From an uncultured Lachnospiraceae bacterium (GTDB taxonomy: Bacteria > Bacillota > Clostridia > Lachnospirales > Lachnospiraceae), in NCBI GenBank assembly GCA_944375845.1, contig CALWAW010000092.1:1-32751 (forward strand): a stretch of DNA of 32,751 nucleotides, given 5' to 3'. Shown here piece after piece: positions 3,289 through 15,369 of this stretch. The translations under genes and the position numbers were made by a program. Numbering within the stretch: position 1 is the stretch's first letter; each line of letters opens with the position of its first letter. The notes under the pieces are model-generated. The model saw only the letters and a list, made by a program, of their open reading frames with translations. It did not search any database and was not told where the DNA came from.

Positions 3289-5931
3289 ATGAGAGAGAAG
3301 ATCGTACTCATTGACGGATACAGCATACTGAGCAGGGCCTTTTACGGGATCCACGCCAGCATGACAAATTTTGAGGGGCTTCATACCAACGCCATTTACG
3401 GCTTTTTAAATATCATGTTCAAGATCATGGACGAGGAGGCGCCCGATTATCTGGCGGTGGCCTTTGACGTGAAGGCGCCCACCTTCCGCCACAGGCTTTA
3501 CGACGCCTACAAGGGAACCAGAAAGGGGATGCCCGAGGAGCTGACCGAGCAGGTGCCGGTGTTAAAGGAGCTCCTTAAGGCCATGGGAATCCGGACGGCG
3601 GAGCTTTCCGGCTACGAGGCCGACGATATCCTCGGCACCCTTTCCTCAAGGTGCGAGAGAGAGGGCCTTTTTGTGGTGCTGGTCTCCGGAGACAGGGACA
3701 TGCTCCAGCTGGCGGGAAGGAACGTAAAGATCCGCATCCCCAAAACAAAAGGGGGCTCTGCGGTGGTGGAGGACTATCTGGAGGCCGACGTGGTGGAACG
3801 GCTGGGGGTTACTCCGGCTGAGTTCATCGACGTGAAGGCGCTGATGGGCGATTCCTCCGATAATATCCCCGGCGTCGCGGGCATCGGGGAAAAGACGGCC
3901 TACAGCCTGATCCGGGAATATCACAGCCTGGAGGGGGTTTATGAAAACCTGGAGAGCGTAAAGCCGGAGCGGGCGAAAAAAGCCCTGGCGGCGGGGCGGG
4001 AATCGGCGGAGCTTTCAAGAAGGCTGGCGCTCATCGACAGGAACTGCCCCGTGGAGTTTTCCCTTGATGAGGCACGTCTTGGAAACGTCTTTACCGGCGA
4101 GGCCTACGGCATCTTAAAGCGGCTGGAGCTTAAGAGCATCCTGAACCGGTTCCCCTCTCCGGCGCAGACGGAAAAGGGCGCGGAATCCTCCTTCGTCCTT
4201 CTGGAGGACGAAAAACAGGCAGAGGCCGTCGTGGAGCAGGCCCTGGGAGCACAGACCGTGGGCTTTCAGCTTCTTCTGGACGGCGGCAGGACGGCGGGGC
4301 TTGCCCTGGCCTGCGGCGGTGATGAGGCGTTCGTGCTGCGAACGGGAAAGGGGCTTACGGAAGACATTCTTGAAAAATACGCAAGGCGTCTGGCACTTCG
4401 CGGAAAAAATACCTGGGTCATGGATTTGAAGGCCATGCTTCCGGTGCTTGAAATCGACGAGGCAGAGGGCCTTCTGGACGCGGGCGTGGCCGCCTATCTT
4501 CTGAATCCTCTAAAGAGCGGCTATGCTTACGACGGACTGGCGGCGGAGCATCTGGGCCTTACGATCCCCTCGCGGGAGGACCTTCTGGGAAAGAGCTCCT
4601 TCGGGGAGGCCTTTGATCAGAAGCCCGGCGAGGCCCTCGCCTGCGGAGGCTATATGGCGCGCACCGCCTGCGGGGCGGGCCCCATCCTCCTTGAGAAGCT
4701 TAGAAAGCAGGGGATGGAGGAGCTTTTCTTAAAGATCGAGATGCCTCTGATTTACAGCCTCTTTCACATGGAGCAGGCGGGAATCGCGGTGCGCCGGGAG
4801 GCACTGGCGCAGTACGGCGAAAAGCTGGGGGAGCGGATCGGCGTCCTGGAGCAGGAGATTTACGGGCTCTCGGGCGAGACCTTCAACATCAATTCGCCGA
4901 AGCAGCTGGGCGTGATCCTTTTTGAGAAATTAAAGCTTCCCTACGGGAAAAAGACAAAGACCGGCTATTCCACCTCGGCGGATATTCTGGAAAAGCTGGC
5001 GCCGGAGCATCCGCTGGTGTCAAAGATTCTGGAATACAGGCAGCTGGCGAAGCTCAAATCCACCTATGCCGACGGGCTGGCGGCCTACATCGGGCCCGAC
5101 GGGCGTATTCACGGAAAATTCAATCAGACCATAACGGCCACGGGGCGGATCAGCAGCACGGAGCCGAACCTTCAGAATATTCCGGTGCGCATGGAGCTGG
5201 GACGGGAGATCAGAAAGGTGTTCGTTCCCGCCGAGGGATTTATTTTCGTGGACGCGGATTATTCTCAGATCGAGCTTCGGGTGCTGGCCCACATGTCGGG
5301 GGACGTCCGACTGATCGAGGCCTACCATAAGGCCCAGGATATTCACCGGATCACGGCCTCCCAGGTGTTCCACATCCCCTTTGAGCAGGTGACGGCGGCG
5401 GAGAGGCGGAACGCCAAGGCCGTGAACTTCGGAATCGTATACGGAATCAGCGCCTTCGGCTTAAGCGAGGATTTAAGCATCAGCAGAAAAGAGGCTCTGG
5501 ATTATATCAATCAGTATTTTGAGACCTATCCCGGGGTCAAGGCCTTCCTGGACGGACTCATCGCGGAGGCGAAGGAAAAAGGCTTTGTCACCACCCTTTA
5601 CGGGCGGAAGCGGCCGGTGCCGGAGCTTTCCTCCTCCAACTTTGCCCAGAGGAGTTTTGGAGAGCGGGTGGCCATGAACAGCCCCATCCAGGGGACGGCC
5701 GCCGATATTATGAAGATCGCCATGGTGGGAGTGGACAGAAGGCTGCGCCGGGAGGGCCTTAAGTCCCGCCTGATTTTACAGATCCACGACGAGCTCCTTG
5801 TGGAGGCGGCCCTGGACGAGGTGGAAGCGGTCAAGGCCATTCTAAAAGAAGAGATGGACGGGGCCGCCAGCCTTTCGGTGCCCCTTGAGGTGGATATGAA
5901 CGTGGGAGAAAGCTGGTTCGAGACAAAATGA
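3289..5931 (+). CDS. polA: DNA polymerase I
   Basis: An 880-residue family A polymerase for Okazaki-fragment maturation and repair. The N-terminal 290 residues are the 5'-3' exonuclease (FLAP) domain, beginning with the metal-binding IDGYS. A middle 3'-5' exonuclease-like domain appears inactive: where E. coli has the FDTETD acidic motif this protein reads VGFQLLLDGG. The polymerase domain holds motif A (DYSQIELR, D657), motif B (RRNAKAVNFG, K710) and motif C (IHDELLVE, D834). ATG 3289 is chosen for AGGAGG just upstream; an earlier in-frame start would overlap the zf-HC2 gene. The stop overlaps the coaE start by 4 bp, indicating translational coupling. Confidence 0.97.
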   Translation: MREKIVLIDGYSILSRAFYGIHASMTNFEGLHTNAIYGFLNIMFKIMDEEAPDYLAVAFDVKAPTFRHRLYDAYKGTRKGMPEELTEQVPVLKELLKAMGIRTAELSGYEADDILGTLSSRCEREGLFVVLVSGDRDMLQLAGRNVKIRIPKTKGGSAVVEDYLEADVVERLGVTPAEFIDVKALMGDSSDNIPGVAGIGEKTAYSLIREYHSLEGVYENLESVKPERAKKALAAGRESAELSRRLALIDRNCPVEFSLDEARLGNVFTGEAYGILKRLELKSILNRFPSPAQTEKGAESSFVLLEDEKQAEAVVEQALGAQTVGFQLLLDGGRTAGLALACGGDEAFVLRTGKGLTEDILEKYARRLALRGKNTWVMDLKAMLPVLEIDEAEGLLDAGVAAYLLNPLKSGYAYDGLAAEHLGLTIPSREDLLGKSSFGEAFDQKPGEALACGGYMARTACGAGPILLEKLRKQGMEELFLKIEMPLIYSLFHMEQAGIAVRREALAQYGEKLGERIGVLEQEIYGLSGETFNINSPKQLGVILFEKLKLPYGKKTKTGYSTSADILEKLAPEHPLVSKILEYRQLAKLKSTYADGLAAYIGPDGRIHGKFNQTITATGRISSTEPNLQNIPVRMELGREIRKVFVPAEGFIFVDADYSQIELRVLAHMSGDVRLIEAYHKAQDIHRITASQVFHIPFEQVTAAERRNAKAVNFGIVYGISAFGLSEDLSISRKEALDYINQYFETYPGVKAFLDGLIAEAKEKGFVTTLYGRKRPVPELSSSNFAQRSFGERVAMNSPIQGTAADIMKIAMVGVDRRLRREGLKSRLILQIHDELLVEAALDEVEAVKAILKEEMDGAASLSVPLEVDMNVGESWFETK

Positions 5932-7667: not shown

Positions 7668-9032
7668 ATGATAAACCGGATTGAGGTAGACGAGACCAAT
7701 AAGATGATCCAGCAGGAGAAGCTGGACGTGCGGACCATTACCATGGGCATCAGCCTTCTGGACTGCATCGATTCTGACCTGGGAGCGCTGGAGGAAAAAA
7801 TCTATAAAAAGATCACCGGCTGCGCCAGCAGGCTTGTGGAGACGGGACGGGAGATCGAGATCGAATACGGGATCCCCATCGTAAACAAGCGGATCTCCGT
7901 AACGCCCATCGCCCTTGTGGGCGGCGCGGCCTGTAAAAGGCCGGAGGACTTCGTCCGTCTGGCAAAGGTTCTGGACGAGGCGGCGAAAAAGGTGCGGGTC
8001 AACTTTATCGGCGGCTATTCGGCTCTGGTGAGCAAGGGCATGACGCCCTCTGACGAGCTTCTGATCCGCTCCATCCCCGCGGCTCTTTCCTCCACGGACC
8101 GGGTGTGCAGCTCCGTCAACGTGGGCTCCACCAGGACCGGAATCAATATGGACGCGGTGCGCCTCATGGGACAGATCATAAAGGAGACGGCTGAGGCCAC
8201 GGCCGCCCAGGATTCCTTAGGCTGCGCCAAGCTGGTGGTGTTCTGCAACGCCCCCGACGACAACCCCTTTATGGCGGGGGCCTTCCACGGGGTCACGGAG
8301 GCGGATACGGTCATCAACGTGGGGGTCAGCGGCCCCGGCGTTGTAAAGACCGCCCTGGAAAAGGTGCGGGGGGCGGATTTTGAAACCCTCTGCGAGACCA
8401 TAAAGAGAACGGCCTTCAAGGTGACAAGGGTGGGCCAGCTGGTGGCGAGGGAGGCTTCCCAGAAGCTGGGCGTCCCCTTCGGGATTGTGGACCTTTCCCT
8501 GGCGCCTACCCCGGCGGTGGGGGACAGCGTGGCTGAAATCCTGGAGGAGATGGGCCTTGAGAGCGTGGGAGCGCCCGGCACGACGGCGGCCCTGGCCCTG
8601 TTAAACGATCAGGTGAAGAAGGGAGGCGTCATGGCCTCCTCCTACGTGGGCGGCCTTTCGGGGGCCTTCATCCCCGTCAGCGAGGATCAGGGAATGATCG
8701 ACGCGGTGAACCGGGGTGCCCTCACCATAGAAAAGCTTGAGGCCATGACCTGCGTCTGCTCCGTGGGCCTGGATATGATCGCCATACCCGGAGACACCAC
8801 GGCGGCCGCCATCTCGGGCATCATCGCCGATGAGGCGGCCATCGGAATGGTAAATCAGAAGACTACGGCGGTGCGTCTGATCCCCGCGGCAGGAAAAAAG
8901 GCGGGGGATACGGTGGAGTTCGGCGGCCTTTTGGGCTACGCGCCCGTTATGCCGGTGAACGGCTGGTCCTGCGAGGCCTTCGTAAGCCGGGGCGGAAGGA
9001 TCCCGGCGCCGATCCACAGCTTCAAAAACTGA
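7668..9032 (+). CDS. UPF0210 (DUF711, PFL-like) family protein
   Basis: A 454-residue protein of the UPF0210 family, recognised from [14 protein letters not shown], a conserved glycine-rich core ([11 protein letters not shown]) and the tail [12 protein letters not shown]. It is annotated in databases as a PFL family protein from fold likeness to pyruvate formate-lyase; no reaction is established. It has no obvious glycyl-radical RVxGY motif, so radical chemistry should not be assumed. A strong GGAAGGGGAGG ribosome site precedes it and a terminator closes the unit. It forms a pair with the ACT protein and lies ahead of an amino-acid-type transporter, but that transporter is a separate transcript. 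Confidence 0.9.
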
Positions 9033-9038
9033 TGATGA

Positions 9039-9067
9039 GAACGTCCTTTGCGGGGCGTTCTTTTTTT
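9039..9067 (+). terminator. Terminator after the UPF0210 gene
   Basis: GAACGTCC (9039-9046) pairs with GGGGCGTTC (9052-9060) over a 5-nt loop, followed by TTTTTTT. It ends the MBL-ACT-UPF0210 transcript. Confidence 0.8.
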
Positions 9068-9093
9068 GTGCCCGGATTCCATTTTGGAAAATA

Positions 9094-9191
9094 TTGCATA
9101 AACAAAGCAGGATATGATATGTTCTGCCGACACAAAAAAGGATAGGATAAAAGGGAAATTATGGTACCTTTTTGTGCATGAAGCACAAAAA
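9094..9191 (+). promoter_or_regulatory. livJ leader with candidate promoter, palindrome and alternative hairpins
   Basis: The upstream part has TTGCAT (9094-9099) and overlapping -10-like boxes (TATGAT 9113-9118, TATGTT 9118-9123), none ideal. A perfect inverted repeat, TTTTTGTGC (9169-9177) and GCACAAAAA (9183-9191), with a 5-nt centre follows. The left arm can instead pair with CACAAAAAAGG at 9131-9141 through CCTTTTTGTG (9167-9176): ten pairs with one bulge. TTTTTGTGC occurs again at 9063-9071. The repeats could be an operator or two exclusive RNA folds; there is no T-tract after the second hairpin, so a classic attenuator is unlikely. Confidence 0.45.
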
Positions 9192-9230
9192 TACCGAGAC
9201 ATCCGTTGAAAAGGGAAAGGAGAAACGAGG

Positions 9231-10418
9231 ATGAAAAAATGGTTTGCATTGTTACTGGCAGTGGTTCTCGCCTGCTCAGCGCTGGCAGGATGCGGAAGCA
9301 AAGAGACCTCCGGCGATGACGGGGACGGCCCCATCAAAATCGCCTATTCAGGCCCCATGACCGGCGATAACGCCGAGTACGGCCTGCTGTTCCAGAACGC
9401 GGTTGAGCTGGCTGTCAAGCAGGCTAACGATGCGGGCGGCGTGCTGGGCCGTGAGGTCGAGGTTGTTGAATTTGACGATAAGAACTCCAGTGAGGAGGCT
9501 GGCTCCATTGCCGAGAAGATTGTCGGTGACGAGGACATCGTAGCGGTATTCGGACATTTCGCCAGCGGCGTTGCCATGACGGCGGCGCAGATCTATCAGG
9601 AGGCGGGAGTTGTGCTTCTTTCCGCGTCCGCTTCTCACGTGGATTATTCCTCCATCGGCGATTACATTTTCAGAAATAACGTTACCCAGGACGTGGAGGC
9701 TTACAACTGCCTTCAGATCGCCGTTGGGAGCGGAGTCAAGAAGCTGGGTATGTTAAAGTTAAAGACCGACTGGGGCGAGAGCGCAGAGAACTCCTTCATG
9801 GCTGCTCTTGAGGAGATCGAGGGCAAGAGCGACATCGAGCTGGTGGCCGTTGAGGAATTCGTGGACGGTACCACCGACTTCTCCTCCAACATCACCAAGT
9901 TTGAGGAGGCCGGCTGCGACGGCATCGTGGTATTCGGCATGTACGGCTCCTTAGGGCCCTTCGCGAAGCAGTTCCGTCAGTTCAACACAGAGACCCTTCT
10001 GATCTCCGTGGGCTCCTCCTACACGCCTGAGCTCATCGACCTGGCGGGCGACGCGGCCGAGGGCATCATGTTCCCCGGCGGCATGAACCCCGACAGCACC
10101 GATCCCAAGGTGAAGGAGTTTGTGGACGCTTACACCGAGTATTCCGGCGGCAAGGAGCCTGAGAATATGTCCGCGCAGACCTACGAGAACGTGCAGATGG
10201 TCCTTCAGGCCATTGAGAACGTTGGCTCCGCAGACAGAGAGGCCATCAAGGACGAGCTTTACAACATGACCTTCGAGGGCGTTACCGGAACCATCAGCTT
10301 CAACGAGATCGGCGACGCCGTCAAGACTCAGGTGTGGTATGTGGTCAAGGACGGACAGTTCGTGGAGTCCGAGGATCATAAGCTTGTGCTCTGGGATGAT
10401 TTTGTAGCTTCTTTGTAA
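9231..10418 (+). CDS. livJ: Branched-chain-amino-acid-type ABC transporter, substrate-binding lipoprotein
   Basis: A 395-residue type I periplasmic-binding-fold protein that captures the ligand outside the membrane and hands it to LivHM. The N-terminus is a lipoprotein signal, MKKWFALLLAVVLACSALAGC, with lipobox ALAGC and lipidated C21. The mature part begins IKIAYSGPMTGDNAEYG and has the ligand-site region FGHFASGVAMTAAQIYQEAG, then LLSASAS, as in LivJ/LivK. AAAGGAG at 9216-9222 supports the start. The family binds Leu/Ile/Val, but relatives take other amino acids, amides and urea, so the true ligand is open. The co-transcribed ATC-hydrolase-like gene hints at a sulfur amino acid or related compound, which is inference. 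Confidence 0.9.
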   Translation: MKKWFALLLAVVLACSALAGCGSKETSGDDGDGPIKIAYSGPMTGDNAEYGLLFQNAVELAVKQANDAGGVLGREVEVVEFDDKNSSEEAGSIAEKIVGDEDIVAVFGHFASGVAMTAAQIYQEAGVVLLSASASHVDYSSIGDYIFRNNVTQDVEAYNCLQIAVGSGVKKLGMLKLKTDWGESAENSFMAALEEIEGKSDIELVAVEEFVDGTTDFSSNITKFEEAGCDGIVVFGMYGSLGPFAKQFRQFNTETLLISVGSSYTPELIDLAGDAAEGIMFPGGMNPDSTDPKVKEFVDAYTEYSGGKEPENMSAQTYENVQMVLQAIENVGSADREAIKDELYNMTFEGVTGTISFNEIGDAVKTQVWYVVKDGQFVESEDHKLVLWDDFVASL

Positions 10419-10443: not shown

Positions 10444-11319
10444 ATGACTGCCCAATATATTGTCAACGGCCTGACCATGGGGCTCATCTACGCGCTGATC
10501 GCCGTAGGCTATTCCCTTGTGTTCGGCATCCTGAAAATGATCAATATGGCCCACGGCGCGGTATACGCCTTCGGGGCCCACATGATCTTAATGTTTGTGA
10601 CCTGGAATTTGGGCGCCGTTCCCGCAGTGATCCTGAGCGTTTTGCTTACAGGCGGCCTTCTGGTGATTTATGACCGGACGATCCTGGCGACTCTTCGCAA
10701 GAAGAAGGCGCCGGGCATCGCCGCCCTGATCACGACGATCGGCTTTTCCTACATTATCCAGAACGGCCTGATGATCGCCTTCGGCACGGAGATCAAGGCC
10801 TTCCCGGCCCTTCTTGGCGAGAAGATGATACAGGTCGGGAACGTAAAGTTCGCGTTTTCCCAGGTTTACATCCTGGTGGTTTCCATTGTCCTTCTTGTGG
10901 GGCTGTCCCTGCTGATTCATAAGAGCAAGATCGGCCTGGCCATGAGGGCGGTGGAGCAGAACTCCAGGGCGGCGGACCTGATGGGGATCAACGCCAAGGG
11001 CGTAATCAGCGTAACATTCTTCTTGAGCGGCATGTCCGCGGTGATCGCGGCGCTGTTGCTGGCCAGCTATTACCAGACCGTTTACCCCACCATGGGCGTG
11101 ATGATCGGTCTCAAGGGCTTTTCCGCCTCTGTGCTGGGCGGCATCGGCATTCTTTACGGCTCCGCCGTGGGCGGCATCATCTTAGGAATCGCCGAGAGCC
11201 TTACGGTACAGTTTTTGTCCGGCGCGTACCGGGACGCGGTGGCCTTTATCCTGCTGTTTTTGATTCTCATTGTCAGGCCCAACGGGCTGTTCGGAAAAGC
11301 AAAGGTTTCCAAGGTTTAA
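10444..11319 (+). CDS. livH: LIV-type ABC transporter permease LivH
   Basis: A 291-residue integral membrane protein with about eight hydrophobic segments. It opens IVNGLTMGLIYALIAVGYSL and has LGGIGILYGSAVGGIILGI near the C-terminus, both hallmarks of the LivH permease. It forms the channel with LivM. It starts 25 bp after livJ with a GGGAGG site and is 12 bp ahead of livM, so it belongs to the same transcript. No terminator lies between livJ and livH. Confidence 0.93.
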   Translation: MTAQYIVNGLTMGLIYALIAVGYSLVFGILKMINMAHGAVYAFGAHMILMFVTWNLGAVPAVILSVLLTGGLLVIYDRTILATLRKKKAPGIAALITTIGFSYIIQNGLMIAFGTEIKAFPALLGEKMIQVGNVKFAFSQVYILVVSIVLLVGLSLLIHKSKIGLAMRAVEQNSRAADLMGINAKGVISVTFFLSGMSAVIAALLLASYYQTVYPTMGVMIGLKGFSASVLGGIGILYGSAVGGIILGIAESLTVQFLSGAYRDAVAFILLFLILIVRPNGLFGKAKVSKV

Positions 11320-11331
11320 CGGAGGTGCAGA

Positions 11332-12327
11332 ATGGATAAGAGAGATAAGATTATCTGGCTTGTGCTCCTGGCTGCCCTCATCGTGCTTCCGGCAGTGGGA
11401 CTGAGCAGGTATCTGCAAAGGGTCATCAGCCTGATTTTCATTTATTCAATGCTGGGGCTCAGCCTTAATATCGTAACCGGCTACATGGGACAGATTTCCC
11501 TGGGCCACGCGGCCTTTTATGCCATCGGCGCCTACACGTCGGGCCTTCTGTCCGAGCACTTCGGGCTCAACTTCCTTCTGACCTGCGTGTGCGGCATCAT
11601 CATGGCCGGGATCATCGGCTGGCTTTTCAGCATTCCCACCACAAAGCTTTCAGGCACCTATCTGGCGATCATCACCATGGGCTTCGGCGAGATCGTCAAG
11701 GTGGTCATTGTCAACTGGGAGAGCCTGACCCACGGCACCTACGGCCTTCAGCGCATCGCGAAGCCGGAGTTTTTCGGGTTCCAGCTCAACACCACCAACA
11801 ACGGCCTTTATTATCTGTGCCTGATCTTCCTGGTGATATTTGTATTGTTGTGTATCGCGATCGAGCGCTCAAAGCTGGGCCGGAGCCTTCGGGCCATCAA
11901 GGACGATCCCCTGGCCGCTTCCCTCATGGGCGTTGAGATCAACCATTATAAGAGAATGGCCTTTACCATCTCCACGGCAATGGCCGGCTGCTGCGGCGCG
12001 CTGTACGCCCATCTTTCCGGCTATGTGGACGCCAACTCCTTCAATTCAGACGTTTCCACGCTGATCTTAAGCATCGTGATCTTCGGCGGCATGGGCTCCA
12101 TCAAGGGAATGCTCCTTGGCGCCGCGGTGCTGGTGTCCTTCCCGGAGGTGCTGCGCTTTGTGGCGGTGTACCGGTTCGTGGTCTACGGCCTGATCCTGAT
12201 CGTGATGATGGTTTTCCGCACGGACGGTATCCTGGGCGGCCCCAGCAAGCGGCCTTATGTGTTCCCCAGGTTCGTAAAGCTTGAGAAAGGGGAGGTGACA
12301 AAGAATGGCACTGCTGGAGGTAAGTAA
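11332..12327 (+). CDS. livM: LIV-type ABC transporter permease LivM
   Basis: A 331-residue integral membrane partner of LivH. It carries the conserved GYMGQISLGHAAFYAIGAY segment and FGGMGSIKGMLLGAAVL near the end, with many hydrophobic helices between. Its last 23 bp overlap the livG start in another frame, indicating tight coupling with the ATPase gene. The length is near that of typical LivM proteins of Firmicutes. Confidence 0.93.
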   Translation: MDKRDKIIWLVLLAALIVLPAVGLSRYLQRVISLIFIYSMLGLSLNIVTGYMGQISLGHAAFYAIGAYTSGLLSEHFGLNFLLTCVCGIIMAGIIGWLFSIPTTKLSGTYLAIITMGFGEIVKVVIVNWESLTHGTYGLQRIAKPEFFGFQLNTTNNGLYYLCLIFLVIFVLLCIAIERSKLGRSLRAIKDDPLAASLMGVEINHYKRMAFTISTAMAGCCGALYAHLSGYVDANSFNSDVSTLILSIVIFGGMGSIKGMLLGAAVLVSFPEVLRFVAVYRFVVYGLILIVMMVFRTDGILGGPSKRPYVFPRFVKLEKGEVTKNGTAGGK

Positions 12328-13081
12328 CGTTTCAAAGCAGTTCGGCGGCCTGGCGGCCGTCAGCAATGTGGATTTCCATGTGAACCAGGGCGAGATCGTC
12401 AGCATCATCGGGCCCAACGGAGCCGGAAAAACCACGATCTTCAACCTTCTCACAGGCGTCTACGATGTCACCGAGGGCAAGATCGTCTTTGACGGAAAGG
12501 AGATCCAGAACAAAAAAGTACAGCATATTGTGAACGCAGGGATCGCCAGAACCTTCCAGAACATCAGATTATTTAAAAATATGCGCACAATCGAGAATGT
12601 TATGGTTGGCTTTCATCAGAATACGAGGTATAATATATTTGACCTGATCTTTCGGACACCCAGATTCCGGAAATATGAGAAGGAAGCCCACATAAAGGCG
12701 CTGGAGGTTCTGCACTCCCTCGGGTTTGAAAAATACATCCACACCTACGCTGGGAACCTTCCCTACGGCGAGCAGAGGAAGCTTGAGATCGCCCGTGCCA
12801 TTGCCACCGGCGCGAAGCTCCTTCTCCTTGACGAGCCGGCCGCGGGCATGAACCCGCAGGAGTCGGAGGAGCTTCTGGAGTTTATCCTGGGATTAAAGGA
12901 TCAGGGCTTTACGATCATATTGATCGAACATGACATGAGCGTTGTCATGAACATTTCCGACCGGATCTATGTCCTCGACCATGGCAAGATGATCGCCGAC
13001 GGGCTGCCCGAGGAGATTGCCAGCAACCAGATGGTAATCGAAGCTTATTTAGGAAAGAGTGAAGACGATGCTGCGGATTAG
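12305..13081 (+). CDS. livG: LIV-type ABC transporter ATPase LivG
   Basis: A 258-residue ATP-binding subunit with Walker A GPNGAGKTT, the LivG-type signature LPYGEQRKLEIARA in place of LSGGQ, Walker B LLLLDEPAAGMNP and the switch histidine in IEHDMSVV. It powers transport through LivHM together with LivF. The ATG at 12305 has GGGGAGGTGA just upstream inside livM. The C-terminus overlaps livF by 14 bp. Confidence 0.95.
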   Translation: MALLEVSNVSKQFGGLAAVSNVDFHVNQGEIVSIIGPNGAGKTTIFNLLTGVYDVTEGKIVFDGKEIQNKKVQHIVNAGIARTFQNIRLFKNMRTIENVMVGFHQNTRYNIFDLIFRTPRFRKYEKEAHIKALEVLHSLGFEKYIHTYAGNLPYGEQRKLEIARAIATGAKLLLLDEPAAGMNPQESEELLEFILGLKDQGFTIILIEHDMSVVMNISDRIYVLDHGKMIADGLPEEIASNQMVIEAYLGKSEDDAAD

Positions 13082-13790
13082 TTCGATGAATACATATTAT
13101 GGCAACATTCATGCCCTGAAGGGGATCGACTTCGAGGTGAACGACGGGGAGCTGGTTACCCTGATCGGAAGCAACGGAGCCGGAAAGTCCACGACCCTCC
13201 TCACTATCGCAGGCGTTTTAAAGGCCGCGTCGGGGAGCAGGATCGAGTTCAACGGGCATGACCTCACCAAGCTGTCGCCGCCCCAGATCGTAAAGATGGG
13301 AGTCACCTTAAGTCCGGAGGGACGAGAAGTATTTCCGGAGCTTACAGTGGAAGAGAACCTGAAGCTGGGAGCTTACTGCCGGAAGGACGTAAAAGAGATC
13401 AAGGATTCCTTCGATCAGGTATATGAGCTCTTTCCCAGGCTTCTGGAGCGGAAGAAGCAGCAGGCCGGAACCCTTTCCGGCGGCGAGCAGCAGATGCTGG
13501 CCATTGGCCGGGCCCTGATGAACAGGCCCAAGCTTCTGATGCTGGACGAGCCTTCCATGGGCCTCGCGCCCAACCTGGTGCTCGAGATCTTCAACCTGAT
13601 CAAAGAGATCCATAAGCAGGGAACCACGATCCTTCTGGTGGAACAGAACGCGAACATGGCCCTCAAGATCGCTGACCGCTGTTACGTCCTCGAAGTGGGG
13701 CGCATCAAATTCTCCGGAGATGCTAAGGAAATGCAAAACAATGACGAGGTGAGAAAAGCTTACCTCGGCACTGTTAATAAAAAAAAGTAG
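13068..13790 (+). CDS. livF: LIV-type ABC transporter ATPase LivF
   Basis: A 240-residue second ATPase subunit with Walker A GSNGAGKST, signature LSGGEQQMLAIGRAL, Walker B LLMLDEPSMGLAP and LLVEQNANMAL around the switch region, as is usual for LivF. ATG 13068 is preferred to the GTG at 13059: it gives the normal N-terminus (MLRISSMNTYYG) and is well placed after AGGAAAGAG. Its stop is 19 bp from the next gene, which is probably in the same transcript. Confidence 0.95.
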   Translation: MLRISSMNTYYGNIHALKGIDFEVNDGELVTLIGSNGAGKSTTLLTIAGVLKAASGSRIEFNGHDLTKLSPPQIVKMGVTLSPEGREVFPELTVEENLKLGAYCRKDVKEIKDSFDQVYELFPRLLERKKQQAGTLSGGEQQMLAIGRALMNRPKLLMLDEPSMGLAPNLVLEIFNLIKEIHKQGTTILLVEQNANMALKIADRCYVLEVGRIKFSGDAKEMQNNDEVRKAYLGTVNKKK

Positions 13791-13809
13791 GAGAAAGGAA
13801 GAAGCGACT

Positions 13810-14316
13810 ATGGAAAAGAAGTACAACGAGAACAAACCGATCCACACAGGTGATCCTGTAGTGGAGGCAAAGCGCGCATGTATCGAGCATCGTGCGATCT
13901 GGATGGCTCTGCTTCTGGACGAAGTACGGAAGGCCGGCGGCGATATGGAGAAGATCGGCCGCGCCGCCATCAACCGCTGCGGCTGCTTCCAGGCAGTTGC
14001 CAATTACAAGGATCACATGAAGGATCCCAACAGCATGAAGGAATTCGGCGATATCTTTGTTGCCGAGCCCGTAACCTTTGAGAACAAGGTTGTCAACATC
14101 GACGATGAGGAAGTTCATGTAGAGATGCATTACTGTCCTCTGCTCACCGCCTGGAGAAAGCTGGGCTTCTCTGATGAAGACTGCGCTCTCTTCTGCGATA
14201 TCGCAATGGAAGGCGACAGGCAGTTCGCAAGGGATATGAACGCTGAGTTCTCCCTGCCCAAGAAGATCGCTGAAGGCGATGACTGCTGCGATCTGAAGTT
14301 CTCCAGAAAGAAATAA
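13810..14316 (+). CDS. L-2-amino-thiazoline-4-carboxylic acid hydrolase-like protein
   Basis: A 168-residue cytoplasmic protein of the ATC hydrolase-like family (Pfam ATC_hydrolase, named from memory). In Pseudomonas the named member opens the thiazoline ring of ATC toward S-carbamoyl-cysteine and cysteine. Here the visible features are eight cysteines, including CGCF (57-60), YCPL with C109 after H107, C125 and C129, and a final GDDCCDLKF (156-164) like the family's ending. There is no signal peptide or membrane segment. It follows livF by 19 bp with its own GGAG site, and a strong terminator comes right after, so it is the last cistron of the transporter operon. Family members differ widely and the true substrate is not known. 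Confidence 0.65.
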   Translation: MEKKYNENKPIHTGDPVVEAKRACIEHRAIWMALLLDEVRKAGGDMEKIGRAAINRCGCFQAVANYKDHMKDPNSMKEFGDIFVAEPVTFENKVVNIDDEEVHVEMHYCPLLTAWRKLGFSDEDCALFCDIAMEGDRQFARDMNAEFSLPKKIAEGDDCCDLKFSRKK

Positions 14317-14337
14317 TCTTTTGCCATTACAGAAGGG

Positions 14338-14365
14338 GCGCCGGTTGATTCCGGCGCTCTTTTTT
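14338..14365 (+). terminator. Terminator of the liv-ATC operon
   Basis: GCGCCGG (14338-14344) and CCGGCGC (14351-14357) form a perfect 7-bp GC stem with a 6-nt loop, followed by a T-rich tract. Confidence 0.88.
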
Positions 14366-14380
14366 GATGCCTTCCGGAAT

Positions 14381-14409
14381 TTGACAAAGACCGCGGCCGT
14401 TGCTATAAT
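14381..14409 (+). promoter_or_regulatory. Perfect consensus sigma-A promoter of the AraC gene
   Basis: TTGACA (14381-14386), 17 bp, TATAAT (14404-14409), matching consensus at all twelve positions. A TATTTAAATA palindrome (14409-14418) covers the start-site region. Confidence 0.85.
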
Positions 14410-14463
14410 ATTTAAATACATTAAAATTTTATGAAGCCAAAACCGAAGAAGGGGGCATACAGG

Positions 14464-15369
14464 ATGGCATTCGAGAAAAATATCTTTGACAGCAGCGAAA
14501 ATCCTGCCTTCAACTGCGGGCCGGCGGTCACCTATACGGGGCACATGCGGCGGGAGGCTCACTGGAGCTGTCCGCCTCATTTCCATGAATGCGCCGAAAT
14601 CCTGTTCTGTGTGGACGGGGTGGGAAGCGTGTGGATCGACGGGCACGAGTACAAAATGCAGGCGGGGGATATCGCCATCTTCAACCCCTATGTGTCCAAC
14701 GCTTCGAGAAATTACGAGAAAGAGGATTTTGAGTTCTTCTTCATCGGGCTTACGGATTTTTCCTATCCGCCCTTTCCCCACGGGACGCTGATGCCCGACG
14801 AGACCCCGGTGTTTTCCTCGGGGCCCTACAAAAGCCAGTTCCAGTTTTATTTCCAGGAGCTTCTGCGGGAGACCTCCCAGCCGGAGATCCTTTATATGCC
14901 GGTGGTGTCGGCCCTGGCCAATGTGATCGCCACCATGCTCCTTCGGATTTACAAATTCCATATTTTAACGGAGAAGAACAAGCAGGACGCCTGCGGCTAC
15001 AGCCGCTTCATCAAGGAATATATCGATAAGAACTATCATCAGGCCATCAACCTGGATACCCTGGCCGAGGCCTCCTTTATCAGCAAATCCTATATCAGCC
15101 ATCAGTTCAAGAAGGATATGGGCATGTCGCCCATCGATTACCTGATAAAAAAGAGGCTTGAGATCGCCAGGTATTTCCTGCTGAACACCAGTTATCCGGT
15201 GGCGGAGATCGCCAAGCAGATCGGCTATGACAACCCGCTTTATTTCAGCTCCCTGTTCAAGAAAAACATGGGGGTTTCGCCCACGGAATACAGAAAGACC
15301 TACCGGCAGAGGCTCCACGAGGAGGTTCACGTGCCGCTGATCTTAAAAGAAACAAAAGGAGAGGACTGA
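14464..15369 (+). CDS. AraC-family transcriptional regulator
   Basis: A 301-residue regulator. The N-terminal half is a cupin-type sensor domain (PPHFHECAEILFCVDG, then MQAGDIAIFNPYVSN), with a linker around 150-190. The C-terminal AraC/XylS DNA-binding domain has two helix-turn-helices: INLDTLAEASFISKSYISHQ, then VAEIAKQIGYDNPLYFSSLF. The cupin type usually senses sugars or other small molecules. ATG 14464 is chosen for AAGAAGGGGG at 14446-14455; the ATG at 14431 lacks a ribosome site. It has its own strong promoter behind the liv terminator and is convergent with tmcAL. The target is unknown; the liv operon upstream is the nearest candidate. Confidence 0.9.
   Translation: MAFEKNIFDSSENPAFNCGPAVTYTGHMRREAHWSCPPHFHECAEILFCVDGVGSVWIDGHEYKMQAGDIAIFNPYVSNASRNYEKEDFEFFFIGLTDFSYPPFPHGTLMPDETPVFSSGPYKSQFQFYFQELLRETSQPEILYMPVVSALANVIATMLLRIYKFHILTEKNKQDACGYSRFIKEYIDKNYHQAINLDTLAEASFISKSYISHQFKKDMGMSPIDYLIKKRLEIARYFLLNTSYPVAEIAKQIGYDNPLYFSSLFKKNMGVSPTEYRKTYRQRLHEEVHVPLILKETKGED

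Follow-up and report, generated by a model that had tools for sequence, protein, structure and literature searches.

A conserved, probable activator-type promoter and a 5' leader stem-loop precede a livJHMGF-ATC hydrolase operon in a genus of Lachnospiraceae

The livJ leader of an uncultured Lachnospiraceae bacterium, analysed here as part of a contig stretch of 32,751 nucleotides (the window), contains a palindrome that most likely forms an ordinary hairpin close to the 5' end of the mRNA, and not the two-state switch or four-site operator array that had been suggested for it. We favour, with a probability of roughly one half, the reading that the operon is served by an activator-dependent promoter and that its mRNA begins with a 5' stem-loop which is probably a stabiliser. 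Conservation among relatives, which were drawn from eleven genomes of the same genus, numbered G000 (the genome of the window) to G010, is seen in the promoter block and its spacing and in the pairing of the hairpin.

All features described lie on the forward strand unless stated otherwise. The operon starts with a gene for a livJ-type substrate-binding protein (Peripla_BP_6, 9231..10418), whose best NCBIfam match is below the cut-off, and continues with livH, livM, livG and livF (10444..13790); the best NCBIfam matches of livH, livG and livF are likewise all below curated cut-offs and livM was named from its position and from a weak tblastn similarity to livH. There follow a gene for an ATC hydrolase family protein (PF14196, 13810..14316) and one for an AraC-family regulator with cupin and HTH_18 domains, a probable activator (14464..15369), preceded by a TTGACA-N17-TATAAT promoter that was read by eye. 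An antisense open reading frame of 395 aa (13774-14961, reverse strand) overlaps the ATC hydrolase and AraC-family genes and, having no NCBIfam match, is probably spurious.

The AraC-family gene follows the ATC hydrolase gene in the same order in the window, G003, G008 and G010, and it is near full-length (E<=1e-40) in these genomes and in G001, where it is found on a different contig with the downstream neighbours unchanged. In G007 it also follows the ATC hydrolase gene and is shortened in-frame; its middle part has been lost (L108:4632-5150) at a locus that has no liv genes and has kept the promoter. At the same threshold G004 and G005, in which the contig stops within 300 nt of the end of the ATC hydrolase gene, gave no match, and neither did G002, G006 and G009, which also gave no livJ and ATC hydrolase matches.

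Upstream of livJ, eight rows could be aligned with identical spacing, from the six genomes with close livJ orthologs (see below) together with G005 and G007. They share a direct repeat of the form ATATTRYAT / ATATNAYAT, with exceptions, and a period of 21, followed after 22 bp by TAnnAT. In the window the first half, ATATTGCAT, occupies 9091..9099 and the second, ATATGATAT, 9112..9120, beside the -35 position; GCAGGATA (9107-9114) is invariant in all eight, and the longer form TATTRCAT-N-GCAGGATA lies upstream of each of the six orthologous leaders. Lag 21 gives the highest self-match of all lags from 9 to 27 (54/72, the next being 39), a value reached at any lag by 30 of 2000 column shuffles. 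The repeat is imperfect, with 5-8 of 9 positions matching per genome when counted by eye. The probable -10 element, TAGGAT at 9143..9148, corresponds to TAnnAT at a constant distance in 8/8 rows and has no good -35 element, and a search of 8900-9400 for sigma-70 consensus sites found none. Reading the block itself as a sigma-70 promoter (TTGCAT plus a -10 at about 9112-9120) was abandoned because, by eye, spacing and hexamers misfit some genomes, and sporulation and other sigma factors, considered by eye, were also dropped. In G001 (locus L032), about 182 nt before the livJ match, there is a second GCAGGATAT 60 nt upstream of the copy of the promoter block, which was not seen in the other orthologous leaders.

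With zero mismatches the promoter pattern, which was built from the same eight rows that it recovers, occurs once in each of these eight genomes and nowhere else among the eleven of the genus, and the eight are exactly those that carry the ATC hydrolase gene (E below 1e-90). Allowing up to three mismatches yielded nine further sites in the eleven genomes; five of these (G001, G003, G006, G008, G009) fall within a conserved gene encoded on the opposite strand, with an open frame of 374-388 aa, and four are in G010, of which the two that were read lie within open frames or at their borders. A related pattern hit 8 of 299 genomes of the family, two of them within the genus, and at the six loci outside it no transporter was recognised by eye in the two longest open frames per locus.

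Promoters activated by AraC/XylS-family proteins typically show a direct repeat with two helical turns between its halves, beside a weak -35 element, and an adjacent AraC-family gene. The block described here resembles them in its direct repeat beside the -35 position, with two direct halves about 21 bp apart, in the weakness of the -35 element and in the adjacent AraC-family gene, and differs in that its halves are only moderately alike and the site is putative. The gene co-occurs with the site, being found in 6 of 8 site-bearing genomes, if the shortened copy of G007 is counted, and in 0 of 3 site-less ones. Gene order, spacing and these family features suggest that the AraC-family protein encoded just after the operon binds the period-21 repeat at 9091-9120 beside the -35 position and, once bound, would recruit RNA polymerase to TAGGAT, so that the livJHMGF-ATC operon would be transcribed from one activator-dependent promoter with an RNA start near 9155. 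The imperfection of the repeat counts against this, as does the loss of the middle of the AraC-family protein in G007 despite the retained promoter.

The first structure of such an mRNA, about 8 nt from its inferred start, would be the stem-loop at 9163..9195, which reads GGTA-cc-TTTTTGTGC-atgaa-GCACAAAAA-TACC. Its core was correctly located by the original prediction as a perfect 9-bp inverted repeat with a 5-nt loop (TTTTTGTGC at 9169-9177 and GCACAAAAA at 9183-9191), and the hairpin extends beyond these limits, with GGTA (9163-9166) pairing to TACC (9192-9195) across a CC bulge, to give a predicted energy of -12.2 kcal/mol. Perfect hairpins with arms of at least 9 and loops of 3-8 occupy eight rows, representing six distinct places, in the window, against an average of 0.85 rows over 20 dinucleotide shuffles; a single 9-bp hairpin in 32 kb is unremarkable on its own and its conservation must decide whether it is real. 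The fold of the whole of 9126-9245 is also modest (z -1.46, with 16 of 200 shuffles equally good), and that of the leader from the inferred start to the Shine-Dalgarno sequence is stronger (z -3.26, p 0.003). The Shine-Dalgarno sequence of livJ, AAAGGAG at 9216..9222, is predicted to be unpaired (P(paired) <=0.07 for its last four bases, GGAG, which were scored), and a terminator was looked for 3' of the hairpin and none was found.

Close livJ orthologs, 79-100% identical over the matched part, are present in 6 of the 11 genomes (G000, G001, G003, G004, G008 and G010), a small and related sample since they were found in one genus only. A hairpin folds at the same place in all six orthologous leaders. 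Against dinucleotide shuffles the leader folds gave p values of 0.0030 (G000), 0.0045 (G001), 0.0040 (G003), 0.0035 (G004), 0.0040 (G008) and 0.0005 (G010), which combine by Fisher's method to about 7e-8 over four lineages (G000, G001, G003, G010); these values apply to leaders cut at a start that was itself inferred from the alignment, the longer cut 9126-9245 being unremarkable. The basal stems differ in sequence yet stay paired: GGTA/TACC in G000, CGC/GCG in G001, CGAA/TTCG in G003 and TTGC/GCAA in G004, G008 and G010, with one G-U pair in G004. In four MAFFT alignments (A1, A3, A4, A5) the stems of different clades were out of register, and pairing was therefore compared sequence by sequence, without formal pair counts over the six. 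As judged from these comparisons of sequence, the pairing is probably under selection that keeps the structure with different letters.

The leaders of G000 and G001 require a comment, since the operon DNA of the two is near-identical from about 20 nt 5' of the livJ start codon (23 differences in 2,705 positions). Upstream of that point the two leaders have diverged, and a comparison over 214 bp of the upstream gene gave 83.6% identity, so that this pair, too, can serve as diverged sequences in the comparison of leaders. The pattern between the two loci (L002 and L003) is like that expected if a recent exchange had ended close to the Shine-Dalgarno sequence.

In G005 and G007, which have no close livJ ortholog (best 45-46%), livJHMGF is missing at the locus and the same promoter lies directly before the ATC hydrolase gene; by eye, the sequence that follows it resembles the livF-ATC intergenic stretch of G008. 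No comparable hairpin was found at this locus in either genome (-1.8 and -3.0 kcal/mol), which indicates that the hairpin goes with livJ and not with the promoter. Other hairpins were noticed by eye 5' of the livJ paralogs of G007 (L009, 46%) and G005 (L008, 45%), with stems that differ and look paired (GACAGAG/CTCTGTC versus GACGAAGCTCC/GGGGCTTTGTT, then GTATGCG/CGCATAC), and these are possibly another leader RNA. In addition, G007 carries at L112 (G007:C24, about 3625-5444) a further ATC-hydrolase-like stretch that is incomplete, 76-79% identical and contains an internal TGA; part of a livJ-like gene lies nearby.

Beyond the orthologs, 55 livJ-type loci were collected from a contig scan with two short peptide patterns, and the regions upstream of them, some with fewer than 320 bases available, were scanned with DNA patterns. 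The scan recovered the orthologs of G001, G003, G004, G008 and G010, and upstream of the 50 non-ortholog loci, whose best segments are 28-48% identical and in one case 55%, neither hairpin nor promoter pattern was found, except for a bare TTTTTGTGC at L076. A structure model, R1, built from three of the six leaders (G004, G008, G010), gave no match at E<=0.01 in 60 genomes of the family, and in the eleven of the genus the only hits below E 1 were the three leaders it was built from; as it also misses the other three orthologs, its absence elsewhere says little. At other liv paralogs (L012, L013, L010), consensus-like sigma-70 promoters were seen by eye with AAACGTTTTCTC-type sites nearby, sites that resemble CcpA cre sites.

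With the Shine-Dalgarno sequence left free and no terminator behind it, the stem-loop most likely protects the 5' end of the mRNA. Across all six leaders the last four bases of the Shine-Dalgarno sequence are predicted to be free (P(paired) <=0.13), as expected of a stabiliser that does not occlude the ribosome site. In Bacillus subtilis, a 5' hairpin, a ribosome site or a bound protein protects a long stretch of downstream mRNA (PMC3997798), and the livJ stem-loop would similarly shield its mRNA from attack that begins at the 5' end. The likeness to stabilising hairpins of Firmicutes, such as those of the aprE and ermC leaders, extends to the predicted position near the 5' end, the free and strong Shine-Dalgarno sequence and a structure that is conserved more than the sequence. 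The present hairpin differs in having a 7-nt arm that is conserved in sequence, which a stabiliser does not require, and its distance to the 5' end depends on an inferred start.

The 5' arm, UUUUGUG, is kept in 6/6 leaders while the basal stems change. It starts 24-27 nt past the start of the -10 element in all of them (count by eye) and is mostly paired in the predicted ensembles, with one base unpaired in G001. A stabiliser needs no fixed sequence, so the retention of the arm counts against a plain stabiliser; it goes beyond what mere stabilisation explains and is the strongest reason to think of a recognised element. The stem-loop could, although we consider this somewhat unlikely, be a sensory or regulator-binding RNA, its hairpin with the UUUUGUGYA arm being recognised by a protein, a small RNA or a small ligand that adjusts livJ expression. 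Besides the near-constant position of the arm, this would account for the fact that G005 and G007 lack both the arm and the transporter genes and for an outer stem that is also predicted in G003, G004, G008 and G010 and weakly in G001. But the leaders contain no conserved aptamer-sized core, the hairpin model of G004, G008 and G010 misses those of G000, G001 and G003, and with a free Shine-Dalgarno sequence and no terminator there is no visible expression platform; neither of the two parts that characterise a riboswitch was found in these leaders. Capture of the Shine-Dalgarno sequence by the 5' leader, through pairing of UUUCCUGU with ACAGGGAAA, appeared in folds of G008 and G010 and was rejected as confined to one clade; in these two genomes it would need bases 5' of the inferred start.

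Some Rfam leader families, the T-box included, precede amino-acid transport genes. The original prediction had seen no known riboswitch or T-box here, and this holds: no Rfam family matches the window at its gathering score, and permissive settings gave seven matches with E values of 0.6-5, all far below gathering scores and none of them a T-box. The livJ motif riboswitch candidate SRC-36-2, found mostly in Streptomyces, is described as a structured element 5' of LIVBP-domain transporter genes, as is the present one, with a Shine-Dalgarno sequence predicted in an internal bulge of P1 (PMC11109978); by that description it differs from the six leaders studied here, in all of which the Shine-Dalgarno sequence is outside the predicted stems. 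A more specific proposal, that the UUUUGUGYA hairpin is a small genus-specific regulatory RNA acted on by a dedicated protein or by the transported substrate, strikes us as unlikely; if true, the operon would be under double control, with an AraC-type activator acting on the DNA and a hairpin acting in the mRNA. The substrate might be a thiazoline or a cysteine-related compound, because an ATC hydrolase is encoded in the operon. A literature search combining AraC with branched-chain transport, or ATC hydrolase with transporter, returned a single match, which concerned cysteine production.

It is quite unlikely that the leader is simply little constrained and the pairing without function. A hairpin of this size arises about once per shuffled window, the exact letters are not conserved and the longer cut has little folding advantage over its shuffles, all of which would fit a neutral origin; six leaders that stay paired with different letters, and the combined p value over four lineages, argue against it. 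We also consider it very unlikely that the palindrome is a repressor's DNA operator, TTTTGTG-N-CACAAAA, within the leader. A CAC faces TTTTGTG in 5/6 leaders, but the distance from GTG to CAC is 7, 6, 8, 8 and 8, and G001 has no facing CAC, where a palindromic operator would be expected to have a fixed spacing of half-sites; this variation favours RNA pairing over a DNA operator. Moreover, beyond the half-sites the basal bases vary with their pairing retained, and the pattern TTTTGTGC-N3-8-GCACAAAA occurs at a single place in the 1.94-Mb assembly of the organism. A Rex-like or CRP-like palindrome was also considered and dropped because the spacing varies.

The four copies of one motif on which the operator array was based are present as letters, and amount on inspection to two direct copies, one exact complement and one imperfect complement. 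The outlying TTTTTGTGC at 9063-9071 does exist, and it forms the T-tail of an intrinsic-terminator-like site (9037..9071; stem 9037-9062, 11 pairs) that directly follows the stop codon of the upstream UPF0210 gene (NCBIfam PRK05313); shuffles of that 500-bp region contain a mean of 0.9 terminator-like sites. With one copy assigned to a terminator tail, the second half-site missing in G001 and a half-site spacing of 6-8 nt, the array is not supported, and the conserved operator-like element is found elsewhere, at 9091-9120. Relatives with the same operon, whose lack of the repeats had been named in advance as grounds for giving up the proposal, do lack the exact repeats but retain the hairpin.

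The original prediction of a switching RNA is supported as regards the main hairpin, whose pairing is kept with different letters, but not as regards two exclusive hairpins. Pairing of 9131-9141 with 9167-9176 exists as described, with one bulged A, and its stability (-8.4 kcal/mol for 9130-9177) is below that of the main hairpin (9163-9195) given above. The most stable duplex that the shared arm can form with upstream sequence has -11.0, -3.6, -7.5, -3.1, -1.4 and -5.6 kcal/mol in G000, G001, G003, G004, G008 and G010, respectively; it is better than most shuffles in G000, G003 and G010 (matched by 34, 6 and 11 of 500), the stretches tested in G003 and G010 including the inferred -10 region, but fails in G001, G004 and G008 (494, 76 and 480 of 500), so that even the close relatives G008 and G010 disagree. 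That 9167-9176 chooses between 9131-9141 and 9183-9191 is highly improbable, since the upstream partner is not conserved, would with a -10 at 9143-9148 probably lie 5' of the transcript, and neither state is coupled to a terminator or to capture of the Shine-Dalgarno sequence.

The element as a whole is of ordinary, known kinds. The more telling signal is the conserved activator-type site beside the hairpin, which the original prediction missed. In this operon a LIV-type transporter goes together with an enzyme of the ATC hydrolase family, beside one local regulator. The two relatives that carry the promoter but lack the hairpin make both parts easy to test.
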